Source of the DNA: Microcaldota archaeon
GTDB lineage: Archaea > Micrarchaeota > Micrarchaeia > Micrarchaeales > Micrarchaeaceae
Length of the DNA: 33,706 nt
Direction of reading: 5' to 3'
NCBI GenBank assembly: GCA_028867285.1
Contig: JAGWGP010000003.1
Location: 1 to 33,706 of the forward strand
Under the pieces are notes generated by a model, which was given only the letters and a program-made list of their open reading frames with translations, was not told the origin of the DNA and ran no database searches. This document shows, in pieces, positions 12,335 through 21,989 of the stretch. The translations under genes were made by a program, and so were the position numbers. Position 1 is the stretch's first letter, and every line of letters begins with the position of its first letter.

Positions 12335-13933
12335 TTATCTCTTGATGAAGATGCTGCTGTACCTCACGAAGGCGTCGGCCAGGGGGGCGAGTATCGAGAG
12401 CCTCTCCCCCGTCTTGCTTATGAAATCCAGGTTCTTCTTGGTGGCCCCGCCGAACAGCGCGATGAGCGCAGGATAGAGCAGGAGAGCGACAGCGAGGTTG
12501 ACAACGAGGGCAATCCTGCTCTGGTGTAGCGCGAACGATATCCCGTAGAGCACGGCCAGCAGGGCGATGGACGAGAGCGACACCATTATTATGCTGCGGT
12601 ACTTGTGCTGCAGCTTGAACTGGCTCTGCAGCGCCTTTATGTAGATAACGTCCAGCAGTATCGGGGTTATCACGAAGAGCGCGAGCAGCACGCCTATGCC
12701 CTTGAGCATCGGGGTGAGCACGATAAGCAGCGCCAGCTGTATGATGACCGCGGTGACCTGGTACAGCATGAACTTCTTGCTGTTGCCGAAGCCCAGTATC
12801 AGCGTGCCCGCATAGGTGCCTATCAGGCCGGCTGCCATCCCCGCTATCATTATGGAAAAGTACAATGGGGTCGTGGTGTAGGACGCCGAGAAGAGCAGAT
12901 GGGTGAGCGGCGTCGACACCGATATCGCGTAGGCCAGGACAGGGAACAGGATAAGCGCGGTGTAGTAGAGGCTGTTGTTGTATATGGCACCTATCTTCTT
13001 CGCCGTGTTCTGCTTCATCAGTGCCCTAGAGAAAGCGGGCAGCAGTATGAGTGCAATGTCAGTTATGGTGAGGTCCACGAACCTGGCGAGCTTGAACGCC
13101 GCGCCGTAGTTGCCCACCACAGCAGCGGCAACGAATATGCCAAGGAAGAGCACGCCGAAGTTGGTTGCGCCGTTCATGGCAACGTGGGATACCACCACAG
13201 GCGCTGAGAACGAGGCGAGCTTCTTAGAGTCCTCCTTGGTCGGCTTGGCAGGCCAGTAGCCGCCCTTGAATACTATGTACAGGATTCCGACTATACCTCC
13301 AGAGAGCATCCCCAGAAGGTAGCCAAGCACTGCTCCGAGTATGCCGTAGCCGAGGAGCACTAGCCCGACCGAGAGAACAAGGCTCGCGGCAGAGTATATG
13401 GTGTTGCTTATCGCGGCCTCCTTCACCAGACCTATGCTGATCAGCGCGGCCAGCGAGAGGTTGTACAGCACGTAGAAGAACTCTGCGGATGCGCCCAGCT
13501 GGAGGGCGAGGGTCAGGCCGGAGTTGTGGTATACGCTGCCAGCAAGGTATCCGCTGAGGAGGATTCCTGCAATGGAGAGCGCAAGGCCGGCGCCAAGCGA
13601 TATCATGTAGCCGCTACCCAGGAGCTTTCGGATCTTGTCCGAGGACTTTATCTCGGGCAGCATCTTCCTGAATGCGGTGCCCACCCCGAAGTTGCTGCTT
13701 ATGCCCAGCAGGGTGGAGAAGGCTATGACAATGGTGTAGATTCCAAAGTCAGACGGCTGGAGCAGCCTGGCTAGGGCGATGAGCATCAGCAGAGTGAGCA
13801 GAGAGGTGAGCACGTCACCGATGACGTATATGGCGCCCCTCTTCGCTGTGACTATGGCGAGCTCCTCGACCTCGGAGGATGTCCTCGCCTCCTCCATCTT
13901 CGCCTGGCTCTTTAAGGTCTTTGGTGCCGCCAT
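12335..13933 (-). CDS. Polysaccharide biosynthesis/flippase (Wzx/MATE-like, MVF superfamily) membrane protein
   Basis: About 12-14 TM helices; LLMLIALARLLQPSDFGIYTIVIAFSTLLGISSNFGVGTAFRK typical of the Wzx/RfbX N-terminus. Confidence 0.87.
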   Translation of the reverse strand: MAAPKTLKSQAKMEEARTSSEVEELAIVTAKRGAIYVIGDVLTSLLTLLMLIALARLLQPSDFGIYTIVIAFSTLLGISSNFGVGTAFRKMLPEIKSSDKIRKLLGSGYMISLGAGLALSIAGILLSGYLAGSVYHNSGLTLALQLGASAEFFYVLYNLSLAALISIGLVKEAAISNTIYSAASLVLSVGLVLLGYGILGAVLGYLLGMLSGGIVGILYIVFKGGYWPAKPTKEDSKKLASFSAPVVVSHVAMNGATNFGVLFLGIFVAAAVVGNYGAAFKLARFVDLTITDIALILLPAFSRALMKQNTAKKIGAIYNNSLYYTALILFPVLAYAISVSTPLTHLLFSASYTTTPLYFSIMIAGMAAGLIGTYAGTLILGFGNSKKFMLYQVTAVIIQLALLIVLTPMLKGIGVLLALFVITPILLDVIYIKALQSQFKLQHKYRSIIMVSLSSIALLAVLYGISFALHQSRIALVVNLAVALLLYPALIALFGGATKKNLDFISKTGERLSILAPLADAFVRYSSIFIKR

Positions 13934-13947
13934 ATTATCGTCCGTTA

Positions 13948-14865
13948 TTAGTTCCTCAACGCGTTCGATACCACGTCGGCGAGAGCCTCGGTGAGTTTGG
14001 ACGATAGGTTCAGCGACTCTGTCCTTATTAGGTTGACGCCCAATCGCGAAGCCAGCTCCCTGGCCTCTATGTCTATGTCGTAAAGTATCTCCAGGTTGTC
14101 TGAGACGAAGCCCACGGTGCAGACTACTATATTCCTGCTGCCGCCCTTGGCAAGCTCAGCTATCTTCTCGGTTATGTCGGGGCCCAGCCACTTCTCGCTG
14201 GCGTGGCCTGCGCTCTGGTAGCAGAAGGACCAATCAGCGAGCTCTGATGTGGCCGCGACCTTGTCGCAGGTCTCCATAAGCTCGAATGGGTAGGGGTCGC
14301 CGTCGGCCAGTATCCTCTCTGGAAGGCTGTGGGCCGTGAACAGCACATGCGCGTCGTTACCCACCGCATCGAGGGTCTCGGAGAGGTTGGAGGAGAGCGC
14401 GTTGATGAACTGGCCATTGGTGGACCAGCTGTTGACATACGTTGCCTCTATCGGCCTGCCGCTCTCGTTTAGCGCCTCCTCCACAAGCCTGTTGTAGTTC
14501 TGCGTGGTCATCGACGAGTTGTGCGGCGCGAGCGGCATGGCCACCATGTGCGTGTGCTTGGCCTCTATTATCTGGGACACTGCATCCTTTATCGAGGGCT
14601 TCCAGTGCTTGGTCCCCACATACACTTTGTACGAGCTGCCCTCCACGCGGTTCAGCCTTCGCTCCAGCTGCCTCGCCTGCATCTCGGTTATCTCCATCAG
14701 CGGGGAGCATCCGCCTATGCGCTCGTACCGCGCCTTCAGGTCTTCTATCTCTGCGTCCGTTGGCCTCTTGCCGTGGCGGATTGCTGTGTAGTATGGCTCG
14801 ACCTCATCCTCAGAGGCTGGGCTACCGTAGACCATGAGCAATATCGCCACGCTGCTTCCGTCCAT
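13948..14865 (-). CDS. hemH: Ferrochelatase family (protoporphyrin or coproporphyrin ferrochelatase)
   Basis: ILLMVYGSPAS, YERIGGCSPLMEIT, VLFTAHSLPERIL, FCYQSAGHASEKWLGPDITEKI, VVCTVGFVSDNLEILYDIDIEAR. Confidence 0.93.
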   Translation of the reverse strand: MDGSSVAILLMVYGSPASEDEVEPYYTAIRHGKRPTDAEIEDLKARYERIGGCSPLMEITEMQARQLERRLNRVEGSSYKVYVGTKHWKPSIKDAVSQIIEAKHTHMVAMPLAPHNSSMTTQNYNRLVEEALNESGRPIEATYVNSWSTNGQFINALSSNLSETLDAVGNDAHVLFTAHSLPERILADGDPYPFELMETCDKVAATSELADWSFCYQSAGHASEKWLGPDITEKIAELAKGGSRNIVVCTVGFVSDNLEILYDIDIEARELASRLGVNLIRTESLNLSSKLTEALADVVSNALRN

Positions 14866-14869
14866 GAAA

Positions 14870-15892
14870 TCATCTCGTGCTCTGGTGGACCGTGTCCACG
14901 AGCCACTTGACCTTCTCGAGCTCGGTGCCTGGGAGTATGCCGTGGCCCAGGTTGAATATGTGGCCACCTCTTGCGCCAGCCTGCTCGATTATCTTTAATG
15001 AGGAACTCCTTATTGTTGCTTTTGTTCCTAGAAGGATCCCGGGATCCAGGTTGCCCTGTATCGGGGTCGTCTGCCCGATTCTCGAACGCGCCTCATCGAG
15101 ACCGATCCTCCAGTCGACGCTGACCACATCGCTGCCCGCGCTCTTGACCAGCTCGAGGAAGGACGAGGTCCCTGTAGTGAAGTGTATGGTGGGAGAGCTG
15201 CCCTTTATGCCTGCAAATATCTTCTTGGTGTAGGGGAGCACGAAATCCTGGTAATCGGAGGGGCCGAGGCAGCCCACCCAGCTGTCGAAGAGCTGCACAG
15301 CGTCCGCGCCGCTGCGTATCTGCTCCTTAAGGTAGGCGATCGTCATCTCAGTAAGCTTCTTCATGAGCAGCTCCCATCCCTTGGGGTCGTTGTACATCAT
15401 CGACTTGGTCTTAGTGAAGTTCTTGTTGTAGCTGCCCTCTATCATGTAGCTCGCCATGGTGAAAGGCGCGCCAGCAAGGCCGATAATGGGGACGCTTGAC
15501 CTCTTCTTAGTTATCCGCACAGTGTCCATCACGAAGTCCATGTCGCTCTTTGGATCGATCGACTTGAGCCTCTTCACATCCCCGATATTCTTTATCGCCT
15601 TCCTTATCACGGGCCCGATGCTGTCTTTAAGCTCAAAGCCGACTCCCATCGCCTCAAGGGGCAGCATTATGTCGGAGAAGCATATCGCAGCGTCGACGCC
15701 GAGCATATCGACAGGCAGCAGGGTCACCTCGGACGCGAGCTCGGGGTCCTTGCAGATGGTGACCAGGCTCTTCTTCTGCCTTATCTTCCTGTAGTCCGGG
15801 AGGCACCTGCCAGCCTGCCTCATCAGCCATATCGGCGTCATAGGGGTCTTCTCTCCCCTGCATGCCCTGATGAATAGGTCGTTCTTCGGCAT
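14870..15892 (-). CDS. hemE: Uroporphyrinogen decarboxylase
   Basis: PIWLMRQAGRCLPDYRKIR, AAICFSDIMLPLEAMG, DAVQLFDSWVGCL, VDWRIGLDEAR, IQGNLDPGIL, FNLGHGILPGTELE. Confidence 0.96.
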   Translation of the reverse strand: MPKNDLFIRACRGEKTPMTPIWLMRQAGRCLPDYRKIRQKKSLVTICKDPELASEVTLLPVDMLGVDAAICFSDIMLPLEAMGVGFELKDSIGPVIRKAIKNIGDVKRLKSIDPKSDMDFVMDTVRITKKRSSVPIIGLAGAPFTMASYMIEGSYNKNFTKTKSMMYNDPKGWELLMKKLTEMTIAYLKEQIRSGADAVQLFDSWVGCLGPSDYQDFVLPYTKKIFAGIKGSSPTIHFTTGTSSFLELVKSAGSDVVSVDWRIGLDEARSRIGQTTPIQGNLDPGILLGTKATIRSSSLKIIEQAGARGGHIFNLGHGILPGTELEKVKWLVDTVHQSTR

Positions 15893-15913
15893 CAACCATC
15901 AACGTCTAGATAT

Positions 15914-16579
15914 TCAGAATAAAGTGTCGAGTATCTCCTTCGGCTTTGCGTGCATCCCCAGGAATATCGGCCTCTCATTCATCGTGTACTCACGCACCCT
16001 CGCGCTCCTGAGCGCGACCACAGCCTCCTGGAAGAGCTGGAGGTACTCGGTCTCGTAAGACACCACGAACTCGTCCTCGAACAGCCCATAAGACCTTATC
16101 AGGTATTGCTTTATGCCGGGGAAGGTCTTGGCAATCTTCATGTGCTCTGCCATCATCGTGTCCCTGTCCGACTTCTCGAGCAGGTACCAGTGCGGCGTCT
16201 TCGAGAACGGATAGAATATCAGGTACTTGTTCCTCTCCTTCTTGCGCATCAGCTTGTCTATCACGTCGAGAGAGGAGTGCTGCGACTCCTTCACGAAGCC
16301 GAGGCAGGAGTACGATGGAGTAAGCGACCTTCCGAGAGTTGTGGTGAGGAGGTTCCTTATTCTGGCCTCAGTATCCTCCGGAGATGAACCCACTACCCAG
16401 AGAATCAGGTCAGCGGTGGCTGCGCCGATCGCGAGATACAGATGGGCAGGCGCCATGTCGTCCCTGTTGAGCCTGTTTATCAGCTCCTCCTTCGCGTATG
16501 CCTTGTCCTCCTTGCTGAGATTCCTCAGGCTAGGCTGAAGCTTGAACGTGACAAACTGTACGAATATCTCCTTGGGCAT
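15914..16579 (-). CDS. hemQ: Chlorite dismutase-like family protein, probable coproheme decarboxylase (HemQ/ChdC)
   Basis: YLIFYPFSKTPHWYLLEKSDRDTMMAEHMKIAKTFPGIKQYLIRSYGLFEDEFVVSYE resembles the HemQ core Y(P)xxKxxxWY ... EHxxI ... SFGLxDxE; sits next to hemE and hemH. Confidence 0.85.
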   Translation of the reverse strand: MPKEIFVQFVTFKLQPSLRNLSKEDKAYAKEELINRLNRDDMAPAHLYLAIGAATADLILWVVGSSPEDTEARIRNLLTTTLGRSLTPSYSCLGFVKESQHSSLDVIDKLMRKKERNKYLIFYPFSKTPHWYLLEKSDRDTMMAEHMKIAKTFPGIKQYLIRSYGLFEDEFVVSYETEYLQLFQEAVVALRSARVREYTMNERPIFLGMHAKPKEILDTLF

Positions 16580-16597
16580 GTGTATCCTCTGCGCTTT

Positions 16598-17014
16598 TCA
16601 CTTTGTGGGGAACACTCTAAGTAGTATCCCGCCGGGCATCTCCATTTCCTTGGCCAAACTTATGTTATGTATCCGCCATATGAGATCTGGCCCTCCCTGC
16701 ACCTCCATCGTTTTCATTCTGACACGCTTTACGTTTATTGGCGCTGGCACATATGGGGTAGCGCCTTCTTTGGCAAGGGACTCCGAAAGCTCTGCCCTCA
16801 ACTTAATCAGCTTTTTCTTCTGGGCATTGGTTGCATAAAAATCATAAGGGGCGATATTATCTTCTTTGGGGTCAATTCTTTTCCACTTGGGCCCTTTGGT
16901 GACTTCTAGGTCTAAAGAACGTATCCCTTTCATTATTCTGCCCAGCGCAGAGTCTACAGTTGCGCTTTCTAAGCTTATCAACTGAATCCTTGCTTTCTCA
17001 ACACCTGCCATCAT
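16598..17014 (-). CDS. Hypothetical protein, 138 aa, possible ferredoxin-like (uS10-like) fold
   Basis: ORF within the heme gene run; N-terminus KARIQLISLESATVDSALGRIMKGIRSLDLEVTKGP resembles archaeal uS10 N-termini as recalled; locally more AT-rich. Confidence 0.65.
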   Translation of the reverse strand: MMAGVEKARIQLISLESATVDSALGRIMKGIRSLDLEVTKGPKWKRIDPKEDNIAPYDFYATNAQKKKLIKLRAELSESLAKEGATPYVPAPINVKRVRMKTMEVQGGPDLIWRIHNISLAKEMEMPGGILLRVFPTK

Positions 17015-17053
17015 CTCACCGGTTCACTAAAGCATTTCATCTTTTTATACCTT

Positions 17054-18706
17054 CTATCTCAGTATCGCCTTGATTATCCCGTCAGTGGTGTGCTCCTCAG
17101 CAACCGAGTCGGGCTTCAGCCCAACATCGCTAGATGCTGCTGCGGTCTTGGGGCCTATGCAGACTATCTTGGGCCTGAACGTCGCGTTCCACTTTATCTC
17201 CTTTAGGCACCGAGACAGGTTCTTCGCTGCAGATGGGCTCGCTATCGTTATCACGTCAATCTTCCTTGAGAAGACATCGCTAAGTTCCGCCTTCTTTGGC
17301 TTTGTTGCTACAGTATCGTAGACAACAACCCTGTCGACAACAGCTCCCTTCTTCTTGAGCATCTCGTAAAGGCCGCTCTCCGCGATGTCGGACTGCGGAA
17401 GAAGTATCCTCTTTCCATTGACGTTGCCGACGCTCTTCGCTATCTCTTCTGATGTGTCGGCCTTGGGTATTGTTATCCCATCCATGCCGCCCTTCGCAAG
17501 TATCGATGCCGTTTCAGGCCCTATTGCAACGGTCTTGGCTTTGATCAGCTCGGTAATCCCCTCTTGTGCCAGCGCCTTTGCGGCGTTGGCGCTCGTGAAT
17601 ATGACGATATCGTAAGTTCCCAACTTCTTCATCGTCTTCTCGTCTATGCCCTTCATTCGAATAGCTATCATCGGCAGGAGTATCGGCACCGCGCCAAGTT
17701 CCTTCAGCTTGGAGGACAGCTGCTCTGACTGCTCCTTTGGCCTGGTTATCAGTATCAGCTTGCCCCTGAGCGAATCCGTGTTGTAGATAGTGCTCTCCCT
17801 TATCAGCTTGGCCCCGCCAGCGGCAAGCAGCTTCTCCGCAAGCTGGGCCCCCGCCGTGATGTTGTCCTTTGCATCGGAGGATATCTCTGCCTTGTACAGT
17901 TCGGTGCCGTCCTCGTTAGATATCATTCCGGTTATTTTTATCTTCCCTGCCTTGACCTCTGCGTATGCCCCGACTGGCATCCTGCACCCCACTCCGAACC
18001 TCCTGAGGAACTCCCTCTCCGCGTCTGTCGCAATCCTAGTGGACTTGTCCTCTATCTTCTTCAGCATCTCCGCGAGTTCCTTGTCGCCCTCGCGTATCTC
18101 GATGGCGAGGGCGCCCTGGCTAGGGGAGGGTATCATCATCGATGGCTCGATGAACTGGGTTATCCGATTCTTCATTCCAAGTCTCGCCACTCCTGCCGCT
18201 GCGATTATAATCGCGTCGTACTCGTTGTTGTCCAGTTTTTTCAATCTGGTGTCTACATTCCCCCTTAGATTTATTATCTGGAAGTCCTTCCTGTATGCGA
18301 GAAGTTGGCTTGTCCTCCTCGGACTGCTGGTGCCTATCCTCGCGTTCTTGGGCAGCCCGTCCAGCTTCGCCCCATTGCTCGATATCAGCACGTCCCTTGG
18401 GTCCTCGCGCTTTAGCACCGCGCCGATCGCAAGGCCGGGCATTATCTTTGGCGGCAAATCTTTGAGGCTGTGCACCGCCATGTCTATGTTCTTTGATATC
18501 AGCTCCTTCTCTATGTCCTTCGTGAAGACGCCGAGGCCGCCGATAATGCTCAGGGGAAGGTCCGACTTCTTGTCGCCCTCGGTCTTTATCACCCTTATCT
18601 CGATGTCCGCATCAGGAAACAGCTTCCTTATGGCGCCAACAGCCATCTCCGTCTGTATAAGGCTGAGCTTGCTGCCCCTTGTGCCGACAACGTACCTGCG
18701 GCCCAC
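17054..18706 (-). CDS. hemCD: Fused porphobilinogen deaminase (HemC) and uroporphyrinogen-III synthase (HemD)
   Basis: HemC: YVVGTRGSKLSLIQTE, HSLKDLPP, ARIGTSSPRRTSQLLAYRKDFQIINLRGNVDTRLKKLD, GVGCRMPVGAYA; HemD: KLILITRPKEQSEQLSSKLKELGAVPILLPMI, IVFTSANAAKA, ITIASPSAAKNL, IVCIGPKTAAAS. Confidence 0.95.
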   Translation of the reverse strand: MGRRYVVGTRGSKLSLIQTEMAVGAIRKLFPDADIEIRVIKTEGDKKSDLPLSIIGGLGVFTKDIEKELISKNIDMAVHSLKDLPPKIMPGLAIGAVLKREDPRDVLISSNGAKLDGLPKNARIGTSSPRRTSQLLAYRKDFQIINLRGNVDTRLKKLDNNEYDAIIIAAAGVARLGMKNRITQFIEPSMMIPSPSQGALAIEIREGDKELAEMLKKIEDKSTRIATDAEREFLRRFGVGCRMPVGAYAEVKAGKIKITGMISNEDGTELYKAEISSDAKDNITAGAQLAEKLLAAGGAKLIRESTIYNTDSLRGKLILITRPKEQSEQLSSKLKELGAVPILLPMIAIRMKGIDEKTMKKLGTYDIVIFTSANAAKALAQEGITELIKAKTVAIGPETASILAKGGMDGITIPKADTSEEIAKSVGNVNGKRILLPQSDIAESGLYEMLKKKGAVVDRVVVYDTVATKPKKAELSDVFSRKIDVITIASPSAAKNLSRCLKEIKWNATFRPKIVCIGPKTAAASSDVGLKPDSVAEEHTTDGIIKAILR

Positions 18707-18718
18707 TTAATCATCCAC

Positions 18719-19843
18719 TTAATCGCTGACTATGAACTTGTCGAGCTTCTCCCTTGCCCTCTCCTTCTTCCTCCTGTGCTCCTTGAGGAACTTGTTTATC
18801 GTGTCTGCTAGCGCCGCCTTGTGCTCCCCAGCAAGTAGGGTGCCGTTACGCTCGGCCTTGAATATCGCCTCGAGCTTCTTGTCGTTGGGCTCGAAGAAGT
18901 ACCTGTAGTACTGGCAGACCATGCACTTGTCGGGGTCGCCGCCGTACTTCTTCTGCAGCTCCGCGGTGGCCTGCTGGCCGGTGAGCGCCCTGAACACCTT
19001 CTTCTTCACCACCTCGGGCGGGTCGTCCAGGTATATCGTGTTGCCGCCCTCGCTCGACGACATCTTCGAGGTGCCGTCAAGGCCCGGCAGGAACTTGGTG
19101 TATATTATGGAGGGCTTGTAGTAGCCCAGCTTGCCGAGCACGTCCCTAGCCACGCGGAAGTGGACGTCCTGGTCGATCGCGAGCGGGATGAGGCAGGGCA
19201 CGTTGTGGCCCACCTCCACCGACTTCAGGAAGGCGGGCACCGCCTGCATCGCCGTGTAGAACAGGAGGCCGATGTTGGACTCGTTGGTGAAGCCGAAGGC
19301 GTCCTTCACCGTGGAGAAGGTTATGTGCTTGGCCACGCGCACCGCGTTCTTGTACATCGTGTTGGCGTAGTTGGTGTCGAAGAATATCTTCGTCTTGGCG
19401 GGCTTGAAGCCGAGCGCGATGATGTCGAGCACGTTGTCCATCGCCATCGAGTGGATCTCATCGAGGCTCATGTCGATGTCCTTCTTGGCGAGGTACTTCT
19501 CCTCGTCCGGTATCTGTATGTAGATCTCCACGCCGAACTTGTCCTGCAGCCACTTGGCGAGCATGAACGGCATCAGGTGGCCCAGGTGCATCCCCTTGGA
19601 CGTGCCCCTGCCGGTGTAGAGGTAGAAGGGATTCCCCTTCTCGTACTCGTTGAGTATCCAGTCGAGCTCCCTGTGGGCGAAGACTATGTTCCTCCTGAGG
19701 AGGAAGTGGAGGGGGCCGGTGTACTTCTCGAGCCTCTTGGTGAGCTCGGGGTCTATGGGCTTGAGGCCGTACTGCTTCGCGAACTGGTCGTAGTCTATCT
19801 TGCCCTCGACCTTGTAGGCGTCGACGTGGTAGCTCTCCGGCAT
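18719..19843 (-). CDS. trpS: Tryptophanyl-tRNA synthetase, archaeal/eukaryotic type
   Basis: FYLYTGRGTSKGMHLGHLMPF, IQIPDEEKYL, CLIPLAIDQDVHFRVARDV, TSKMSSSEGGNTIYLDD. Confidence 0.95.
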   Translation of the reverse strand: MPESYHVDAYKVEGKIDYDQFAKQYGLKPIDPELTKRLEKYTGPLHFLLRRNIVFAHRELDWILNEYEKGNPFYLYTGRGTSKGMHLGHLMPFMLAKWLQDKFGVEIYIQIPDEEKYLAKKDIDMSLDEIHSMAMDNVLDIIALGFKPAKTKIFFDTNYANTMYKNAVRVAKHITFSTVKDAFGFTNESNIGLLFYTAMQAVPAFLKSVEVGHNVPCLIPLAIDQDVHFRVARDVLGKLGYYKPSIIYTKFLPGLDGTSKMSSSEGGNTIYLDDPPEVVKKKVFRALTGQQATAELQKKYGGDPDKCMVCQYYRYFFEPNDKKLEAIFKAERNGTLLAGEHKAALADTINKFLKEHRRKKERAREKLDKFIVSD

Positions 19844-19982: not shown

Positions 19983-21989
19983 ATGATGACATCCACACAC
20001 AAGGAGGATATCTCATCCATACCGGATGAATTAGGCAGGCATACGATGCCAATAGGCATAGACCGCATGGTGGTGACGAGCCCGAGCTACGCGATAACGG
20101 CGAAAAACCTTGGACTCGGCATAACCGCCAACAACATGAAGAAGATGGTAATCGAGGTACTTGACGAGAAGATAGGGGAGGCAGCAAGGAATCCGAGCGC
20201 GATGGAGGAGCTCTCGGAGATGAAGAAACAGATCTCTGGGCTCTACTCTCTGGAAGACGTAAGGAAGGCGGCGAAGGCGCTGCTCACCGGCAACCTGCTG
20301 ACGCTTGAGGAGCTCAGCACAAGGCTCGACACGATGGGCGGCCGCATAAGCATAAGGCGCGGCAAGGAGGACGAGCTGAGACCATCTGCTGACGAGATGG
20401 GGAGGAGGAGGGAGGTCGAGAGGCTCGAGGGATGGATAGACAAGATGGAGATCCCGGAGGGCAAGATAGTGCAGGGATTCGGCATAAAGGAGATAAGGTT
20501 GCCCGGATACTCGGAGAGCAACGTGACCTTCGTCGCAGACGCGATATACAGGTTCGTGAAGGACATAGGCAACAACGAACAGGAGTCCAAGCACTTCGTG
20601 GACCACATAAAGGCGATATTCTACTCCACCGAGAGCAACTCGGACAGGAGCAAGCCCGACGTCCAGATCGCGCTGCAGCTCGTCATGTCGAAGCTGCTCG
20701 CCGACGACGAGAGGAAGTACAGGCCATTCGTGGAGGCGCTGAAGAGGGTGAGGCCCACGCCAATAACCTACGCATGCGTGGGCGGGGTGATATCTCTGGA
20801 CTCATCGCTGGACAAGATAAAGGCGGTGATGTTCGACAAGAAGGAGGCCTCGTGCCTGGTCATAACCGGCGACACCGCGGTATACGACAGCAGGACGGCG
20901 GCGGGGGCGGAGGTCACCCAGGGCGCGGCGTCGACGCTGATGTACATAAAGAGGAACCCTAGGCTGGCGGAGATACACCAGATAGTGGAGGGGGCGGGCG
21001 GCTCGTTCAACGAGTCGTTCTTCGATTTCACCAAGTTCTTCAAGGCCACGCCGTTCGTGCACGGCAAGTTCTCAGAGTTCATATACATATTCGCGATAGC
21101 AAAGGCCTTCGGCAGGGCGGGGATGAAGGAGATACTGGGCCAGCTGTCTAAGGAGGAGCTGGACTTCTACCTGAGCCACCCGCCGTTCCCCAAGCAGCTA
21201 GTCTCGAGGGCGAGCTTCGACTTCGTGGAGTACATGAAGCTCTACGACAAGAAGGCGATGAAAGAGCTCGAGGACGCGGTGGGCAGGGAGCCGCTGCCGA
21301 GAGGGAACAGGAGCATCGTGCAGTACATAGACAAGAGGCTGTACCTGTTCAACAGGAAGCTGGCCAGGGGAGGGGTGATGTCAGAGGACGAGCAGCTCCA
21401 CTGCCTCCAGGAGGACAAGAACATAATCGACTACATGAAGTGGCTCGGCGAGGTGAGGAAGACACCGCAGTTCGCCAGGTTCGCCGAGCGACTGCTGATA
21501 GCGAGCGCCATAGAGCTGCCCTCGCGCATCGGGAACTCCTACTCGAGCTCGGTGTTCGTCTCGCTGGCGAGCCTGATGCAGAGCCACATGGATGCCGTGG
21601 ACAGGGCGGCGAGGGGCGGGGCGGAGGAGATGAAGAGGAGGCTCAAGGGGGTGGTGGCGGGATACGGCAGCGGCTCGCACAGCCAGCTGTTCAGCGCCGA
21701 CGTCGTTGCGGAGTGCAGGCCCGAGGACAACTGCCTAAGGATAGGGATAGACCTCAACAGGGTGGAGATAGGGCCGGAGGAGTACGTCAGGCTGCACGAG
21801 AACCTGCTGGAGGACGACTCCATGAGACTCATCAGCGTGGAGAACCTGATAGAGAAGGACACGGCCAAGCTGCTGAGGGGGGCGAGCATGCCCGAGGGGT
21901 TCAGGATATACAAGAGGAACCAGAACGGCAGCGGCGAGTACGCCTATGTCAAGGACGGCATAGCTGTGCCCCTTCCGATAAGGCACTAA
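19983..21989 (+). CDS. Large hypothetical cytosolic protein (668 aa), no recognised domain
   Basis: Long ORF in the local coding style with a TATA box; no signal peptide or TM. Confidence 0.85.
   Translation: MMTSTHKEDISSIPDELGRHTMPIGIDRMVVTSPSYAITAKNLGLGITANNMKKMVIEVLDEKIGEAARNPSAMEELSEMKKQISGLYSLEDVRKAAKALLTGNLLTLEELSTRLDTMGGRISIRRGKEDELRPSADEMGRRREVERLEGWIDKMEIPEGKIVQGFGIKEIRLPGYSESNVTFVADAIYRFVKDIGNNEQESKHFVDHIKAIFYSTESNSDRSKPDVQIALQLVMSKLLADDERKYRPFVEALKRVRPTPITYACVGGVISLDSSLDKIKAVMFDKKEASCLVITGDTAVYDSRTAAGAEVTQGAASTLMYIKRNPRLAEIHQIVEGAGGSFNESFFDFTKFFKATPFVHGKFSEFIYIFAIAKAFGRAGMKEILGQLSKEELDFYLSHPPFPKQLVSRASFDFVEYMKLYDKKAMKELEDAVGREPLPRGNRSIVQYIDKRLYLFNRKLARGGVMSEDEQLHCLQEDKNIIDYMKWLGEVRKTPQFARFAERLLIASAIELPSRIGNSYSSSVFVSLASLMQSHMDAVDRAARGGAEEMKRRLKGVVAGYGSGSHSQLFSADVVAECRPEDNCLRIGIDLNRVEIGPEEYVRLHENLLEDDSMRLISVENLIEKDTAKLLRGASMPEGFRIYKRNQNGSGEYAYVKDGIAVPLPIRH

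Follow-up and report, generated by a model that had tools for sequence, protein, structure and literature searches.

Introduction

In Actinobacteria and Firmicutes, heme is made by a coproporphyrin-dependent pathway whose late enzymes are UroD, CgoX or CgoN, CpfC, and ChdC. Here, we analyze a heme gene cluster in a 33,706-nucleotide stretch of contig JAGWGP010000003.1 (hereafter, the window) from the Micrarchaeon assembly GCA_028867285.1. As in these bacteria, the cluster encodes HemE, a CpfC-type ferrochelatase (HemH), and a ChdC-type protein (HemQ) with conserved catalytic residues. It differs from the bacterial pathway in that it is archaeal, HemC and HemD are fused, and a recognized coproporphyrinogen oxidase, HemA, and HemB are absent. 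We propose, with a probability of about 0.6, that this genome-reduced Micrarchaeon runs a truncated coproporphyrin-dependent pathway that would be entered at externally acquired porphobilinogen (PBG) and would feed cytochrome bd.

Operons of Chloroflexota and Nitrososphaerota (for example L080, L085, L093, and L101), located with a HemQ profile, have the gene order hemA-hemC-hemD-hemB-hemQ-(cgoX)-(radical SAM)-hemE-hemH. The window and four relatives (G007, G010, G087, and G088) share this order, with hemC and hemD fused, but lack hemA, hemB, and cgoX; in the window, an orphan open reading frame (ORF) occupies the hemB slot. Operons of this type also accompany the proteins with the highest identities to those of the window (39% for HemQ, 54% for HemE of a TA06 bacterium, and 48% for HemH). 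Thermoplasma and Picrophilus have been reported to contain hemE and hemH without a known oxidase (PMC3004389). Their set (hemA, hemL, hemB, hemC, hemD, hemE, and hemH, with the HemQ protein TA0507) resembles the window in combining hemE, hemH, and HemQ without a recognized oxidase. Unlike the window, Thermoplasma keeps hemA, hemL, and hemB, and its HemQ groups with a different micrarchaeal clade.

Haloarchaea use PitA, in which a ChdC domain is fused to an ABM domain, and ChdC function in Haloferax has genetic support (PMC5746218). The likeness lies in the use of a ChdC-type domain for aerobic heme supply in archaea; the window HemQ (221 amino acids) is a single PF06778 domain with no ABM domain or neighbor, and neither uroD nor cpfC occurs in haloarchaea. 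Heme auxotrophs such as "Candidatus Leucobacter sulfamidivorax" GP resemble the window in having lost early heme genes, kept late ones, and come to depend on a partner. Leucobacter GP has additionally lost hemC and hemE, whereas the pathway in the window is cut precisely between PBG and hydroxymethylbilane.

According to a survey of archaea, the coproporphyrin pathway is complete only in Halobacteria and in a single Hydrothermarchaeote (PMC11459464). Some DPANN phyla, Micrarchaeota among them, have been listed with HemC, HemE, and HemH (PMC8407392), and a nearly complete heme pathway has been noted for some Micrarchaeota orders (PMC12892359); neither study analyzed the route. Our literature search, which mostly did not extend to subscription papers, returned no report of a PBG-cut heme pathway, PBG uptake or salvage, or ChdC in DPANN. 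A preliminary description of the window had presented its coproporphyrin-type gene set as exceptional for an archaeon. The archaeal occurrence holds, but earlier cases (PMC3004389, PMC8407392, PMC5746218) take away its novelty; the interest lies in reading this known pathway as one that may scavenge a precursor.

Enzymes encoded by the heme genes

The five ORFs that the preliminary description had placed (hemCD, the orphan, hemQ, hemE, and hemH) lie where it put them. The identities of the heme genes are borne out, far above chance, by Pfam and NCBIfam, which recover the HemE, CpfC-type HemH, and ChdC-type HemQ of a coproporphyrin-dependent gene set. HemCD matches PF01379 (1e-78), PF03900, and PF02602 (4e-48) and exceeds the TIGR00212 cut-off; its sequence contains the Asp84-type HSLKD motif and the cofactor Cys in GCRMPVG. 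HemE matches URO-D (2e-126) and TIGR01464 (1e-122; 409 bits against a cut-off of 303) and carries the motifs MRQAGR, FSDI, and NLGHG.

HemH matches PF00762 (Ferrochelatase; 1e-80) and exceeds the cut-off of TIGR00109. Its ORF opens at a GTG (14967) inside hemE, but an ATG that avoids this overlap is available at 14865 and is most likely the start. Judged by sequence, HemH is of the CpfC type and far nearer to Bacillus CpfC than to mitochondrial ferrochelatase, a similarity that leaves a preference for coproporphyrin unproven. Comparison with Bacillus and Listeria ferrochelatases gave E-values of 1e-62 to 1e-54 (4e-62 for B. subtilis), whereas the human and yeast enzymes gave 1e-30 to 1e-20 (3e-30 for human). 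The proximal residue is Tyr in Firmicutes CpfC and Met in human PpfC (PMC10427985). HemH matches the former with the Tyr in MVYGSP, and it also contains the His in TAHSLP and the Glu in FVSDNLE. Some relatives carry a second, divergent gene of the ferrochelatase family (L048 12044-15312 in G035, L198 in G043, and one in G093); the G043 protein starts with VLMSVGSP, in which Val replaces the proximal Tyr of the others.

HemQ consists of a single Cld-family domain (PF06778, 3e-41); its best NCBIfam model is HemQ_actino (4e-32, below the cut-off of that model). A structure model built from the window protein and 39 relatives had a mean predicted local distance difference test score (pLDDT) of 92. 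According to Foldseek, its best match in the PDB is the coproheme decarboxylase of Streptomyces coelicolor (TM-score 0.85); Thermoplasma TA0507 and the ChdC proteins of Corynebacterium and Listeria follow closely. The root-mean-square deviation (RMSD) of the model is 2.4-2.7 Å to actinobacterial ChdC compared with 4.2-5.0 Å to chlorite dismutases. Across 40 HemQ sequences, Tyr123, Lys127, and His146 do not vary, and the conservation of Gln158 is 90% or higher; Tyr123 and His146 represent the catalytic Tyr and proximal His. The by-eye assignment of a distal Gln, rather than the Arg of chlorite dismutases, also holds. Using phmmer, Gln158 aligns with residue 173 of Nitrospira chlorite dismutase, which is Arg in the wild type (the matches include the W146Y R173Q mutant), and the distal catalytic Arg of true chlorite dismutases is not present in the window protein. 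Most members of a second micrarchaeal HemQ group, together with TA0507, have Ser in this column. Sequence and model together indicate that HemQ is a coproheme decarboxylase-type protein, with the corresponding predicted activity.

A gene for an ABM-fold protein of ~98 amino acids is found beside or near hemQ in other loci (L043, L045, L046, L047, L048, L051, L052, and L054, and L119, L124, and L154 of Thermoplasmata). This protein can be aligned to residues 549-636 of the haloarchaeal PitA model NF007124, which form the C-terminal ABM domain, and the gene pair therefore looks like a split PitA.

Steps missing from the pathway

Absences were scored by family (profile) searches, not on a full gene set of the genome. 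These searches gave matches in the expected control genomes and therefore work. The families were PF05201 (GlutR_N) for hemA, PF00490 for hemB, PF01593 (amino oxidase) for HemY/CgoX, and DUF1444 for CgoN. The host assembly comprises 768 kb in 87 contigs and is 86.8% complete. It yielded neither hemA (glutamyl-tRNA reductase) nor hemB (HemL was not searched), and no amino-oxidase family protein, CgoN, or HemJ. Its seven radical SAM proteins correspond to Tes, MiaB-like, LipA, AmmeMemo, TYW1, a B12-binding type, and one without assignment that falls far below the AhbC and AhbD cut-offs. None of the seven is HemN (HemF and HemG were not searched), AhbC, or AhbD (AhbA and AhbB were not searched), in line with the original distinction between this gene set and the Ahb route.

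The preliminary description had noted a single gap, the lack of a coproporphyrinogen oxidase in the window. The oxidase gap stands and, for the families tested, extends to the whole assembly; however, there are two gaps, since hemA and hemB, which it had suggested looking for, are absent as well. For the same reason, the pathway cannot start from glutamate or 5-aminolevulinate (ALA) with known enzymes, and the biological reading shifts to precursor scavenging.

This pattern extends across the order, three genomes of which match named "Candidatus Micrarchaeota" metagenome-assembled genomes (REEA63, REEA81, and REEA75) without a difference over a tested 3-kb stretch. HemQ is present in 26 of 164 genomes, compared with 36 for ferrochelatase, 9 for hemB, 8 for hemA, and 8 for a CgoX-type protein. 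Among the 26 HemQ-positive genomes, HemH occurs in 25, hemB and hemA in 3 each, and CgoX in one (G071); both hemA and hemB are missing from 22. The heme block recurs in 17-18 relatives, which is more than chance. HemC, HemD, HemE, HemH, and HemQ stay together across these relatives, indicating that selection keeps the part of the pathway from PBG onward.

Two candidates for the missing oxidase were rejected: CgoN, because DUF1444 was found in 0 of the 164 genomes, and the ABM protein, because G071 carries both it and CgoX. In three metagenome-assembled genomes of Thermoplasmata, a CgoX homologue is encoded close to hemQ. Each of the eight micrarchaeal genomes with CgoX (G071, G089, G115, G119, and G129-G132; loci L052 and L189-L195) has, after cgoX, a gene for a TIGR04053-family radical SAM/SPASM protein that is AhbD-like (460 bits to TIGR04053). 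Five of these genomes (G115 and G129-G132) contain hemA, hemB, hemC, hemE, hemH, and cgoX without HemQ, which makes the TIGR04053 protein a candidate oxygen-independent coproheme decarboxylase.

The likely consumer of heme is present. The host genome encodes CydA of cytochrome bd, and CydA was found in 21 of the 26 HemQ-positive genomes versus 32 of the 138 others (Fisher p=3.7e-8, a value that somewhat overstates the strength of the association because genus mates are not independent).

Origin of the heme genes

The trees of the heme genes, including those of HemQ and HemH for which a lateral origin had been raised, point to lateral origins on the basis of sequence, although the long-branched window proteins are only loosely tied to any one donor. 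In the HemQ tree, micrarchaeal sequences split into the group of the window and a second group that also includes Thermoplasma TA0507 and Marsarchaeota; the window protein sits on a long branch and is loosely placed. Several separate micrarchaeal groups appear in the HemC, HemE, and HemH trees. The window is not firmly joined to other clade-A genomes in the HemE and HemH trees; the HemC tree joins them with moderate support (88/87). The approximately unbiased (AU) test rejected one clade for all truncated clusters (p-AU 3.5e-11) and, more weakly, one clade for all micrarchaeal HemC (p-AU 0.011). Because the truncated members do not form one clade, truncation probably recurred. One group mixes complete (G035, G043, and G071) and truncated (G040, G078, G093, and G098) members in which the block is otherwise the same, suggesting that loss occurred within this group.

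Discussion

These findings suggest a model in which PBG, made by a host or neighbor, enters the cell of a tiny, genome-reduced, and probably host-dependent Micrarchaeon. HemCD would join four PBG molecules to form uroporphyrinogen III, which HemE would convert to coproporphyrinogen III. Oxidation to coproporphyrin III would proceed spontaneously under oxic conditions or through an unrecognized oxidase. HemH would then insert iron, and HemQ, with peroxide, would strip two propionates to generate heme b, most of it destined for cytochrome bd. The block may derive laterally from a full hemA-C-D-B-Q-(cgoX)-E-H operon that subsequently lost hemA, hemB, and cgoX, with similar losses in other micrarchaeal lineages.

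External PBG is the simplest reading because HemC, HemD, HemE, HemH, and HemQ are kept but HemA and HemB are not. To our knowledge, HemB is the only enzyme that makes PBG, the substrate of HemC, from ALA. Import of uroporphyrin, coproporphyrin, or heme would leave HemC and HemD without use. Iron insertion requires that coproporphyrinogen first be oxidized to coproporphyrin. Porphyrinogens oxidize spontaneously in air, so this step may be unenzymatic in oxic habitats; the alternative is an enzyme yet to be recognized. Several points weigh against PBG acquisition. We know of no PBG transporter, and our analysis identified none, nor any conserved beside the heme block. HemA and HemB could conceivably have non-homologous counterparts, and at 87% completeness a gene may have been missed in this one assembly. 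Finally, only general chemical reasoning fills the oxidation gap. It is a more tentative generalization, for which we would offer slightly less than even odds, that host-dependent archaea have repeatedly truncated the heme pathway so that it begins exactly at PBG, import PBG via a hypothetical carrier, and run the coproporphyrin branch without a known coproporphyrinogen oxidase.

The pathway might instead be complete, with hemA, hemL, hemB, and the oxidase replaced by unrecognized, non-homologous enzymes. Hidden oxidases are credible in that CgoN, which has no homology to CgoX, was recognized only in 2024 (PMC10965808), and the long-known lack of a recognized oxidase in Thermoplasma and Picrophilus (PMC3004389) points the same way. 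We nevertheless consider this explanation unlikely: 22 of the 26 genomes have neither hemA nor hemB, ordinary HemA and HemB are encoded by relatives whose block is otherwise the same, and repeated replacement of two well-conserved enzymes is less simple than loss. Import of a later tetrapyrrole (uroporphyrin(ogen), coproporphyrin, or heme), with the early genes as relics, would fit the cultured Micrarchaeon Mia14, which has CydAB but no heme genes and must get heme another way (PMC5498576). However, HemCD and HemE are intact here, have their active-site motifs preserved, and persist in distant relatives, whereas relics should be the first genes to decay when a genome is streamlined; we regard this possibility as quite improbable.

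An assembly or binning gap that left hemA, hemB, and cgoX on unassembled parts of the genome is suggested by the fragmentation and incompleteness of the host assembly. The same absence, however, is seen in nine genomes that are at least 90% complete, including one in a single contig, and the chance that incompleteness alone removed hemB from all 23 genomes lacking it is ~3e-23, if they are independent. Moreover, the few complete relatives mostly have hemB close to the block, whereas the block in the window is internal to a 33.7-kb contig without hemB. Such a gap is therefore very improbable. Equally hard to credit is the view that HemQ is a chlorite dismutase or peroxidase-like protein and that the cluster stops at coproheme or produces a different tetrapyrrole. 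In its favor, the window HemQ is divergent, with a long branch and no identity above 39%, scores under the NCBIfam equivalog cut-offs, and gave Foldseek E-values for chlorite dismutases nearly as good as those for ChdC. Against it stand the Gln in place of the catalytic Arg of chlorite dismutases, the Tyr and Lys of ChdC, the smaller RMSD to actinobacterial ChdC, and the adjacent hemE and hemH.

The source of heme in DPANN archaea that have cytochrome bd and few biosynthetic genes is a question raised for Mia14 (PMC5498576). For part of DPANN, the pattern described here offers a testable answer, in which heme is assembled in the cell from an imported pyrrole. If the proposal of PBG acquisition is correct, PBG would be a metabolite traded between microbes, loss would have repeatedly struck one position of a pathway, and these genomes would constitute a set in which coproporphyrin-pathway oxidation is unenzymatic or carried out by an unnamed enzyme.

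Gene neighborhood

The heme genes belong to a co-directional run, trpS-hemCD-orphan-hemQ-hemE-hemH-flippase, with intergenic gaps of 4-39 bases (Table 1). The hemCD gene has a GTG start 12 bases behind trpS, which is probably co-transcribed with the heme genes but stands outside the pathway. The flippase gene is co-directional with hemH, and no role in the heme pathway is indicated for it. The contig is archaeal, as shown by the archaeal-type tryptophanyl-tRNA synthetase (TrpRS) and by A-type ATP synthase genes, which show synteny with the ATP synthase genes close to the hem block in the relative G010.

Table 1 Features of the co-directional run in the window.
Feature	Product	Position	Strand	Basis or remark
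trpS	Tryptophanyl-tRNA synthetase	18719..19843	-	Profile matches (archaeal-type TrpRS); first gene of run
hemCD	Fused hydroxymethylbilane synthase and uroporphyrinogen-III synthase, 550 aa	17054..18706	-	Pfam/NCBIfam
Orphan ORF	138 aa	16598..17014	-	No family match
hemQ	HemQ/ChdC-type coproheme decarboxylase (predicted), 221 aa	15914..16579	-	PF06778 and model
hemE	Uroporphyrinogen decarboxylase, 341 aa	14870..15895	-	TIGR01464
hemH	CpfC-type ferrochelatase, 305 aa, ATG start proposed	13948..14865	-	PF00762, TIGR00109
Flippase	MOP-type flippase/polysaccharide exporter	12335..13933	-	Profile match; 14 bases after hemH

The orphan has no family or PDB match up to E 10 (an NCBIfam match was at chance level), and none of the 163 other genomes in the order contains a homologue. 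Its GC content at third codon positions is 0.50, compared with 0.70-0.79 for the surrounding heme genes, and a single-sequence model was uninformative (pLDDT 42). It may have been inserted into the operon recently or may be evolving fast. The lack of homologues and matches and the low-confidence model leave the orphan unsupported as the missing oxidase or a remnant of hemB, and a resemblance by eye of its start to ribosomal protein S10 was not confirmed by profile searches.

A TrpRS-type gene also lies directly upstream of hemC in two g26 genomes (L041 5028-6152 and L053 13801-14949). These genes share 32% identity with that of the window, though the heme genes fall in different clades. Elsewhere in the window (19983-21989), a 668-amino-acid HMG-CoA-synthase-like protein with ~150 extra N-terminal residues gives weak matches to known models.

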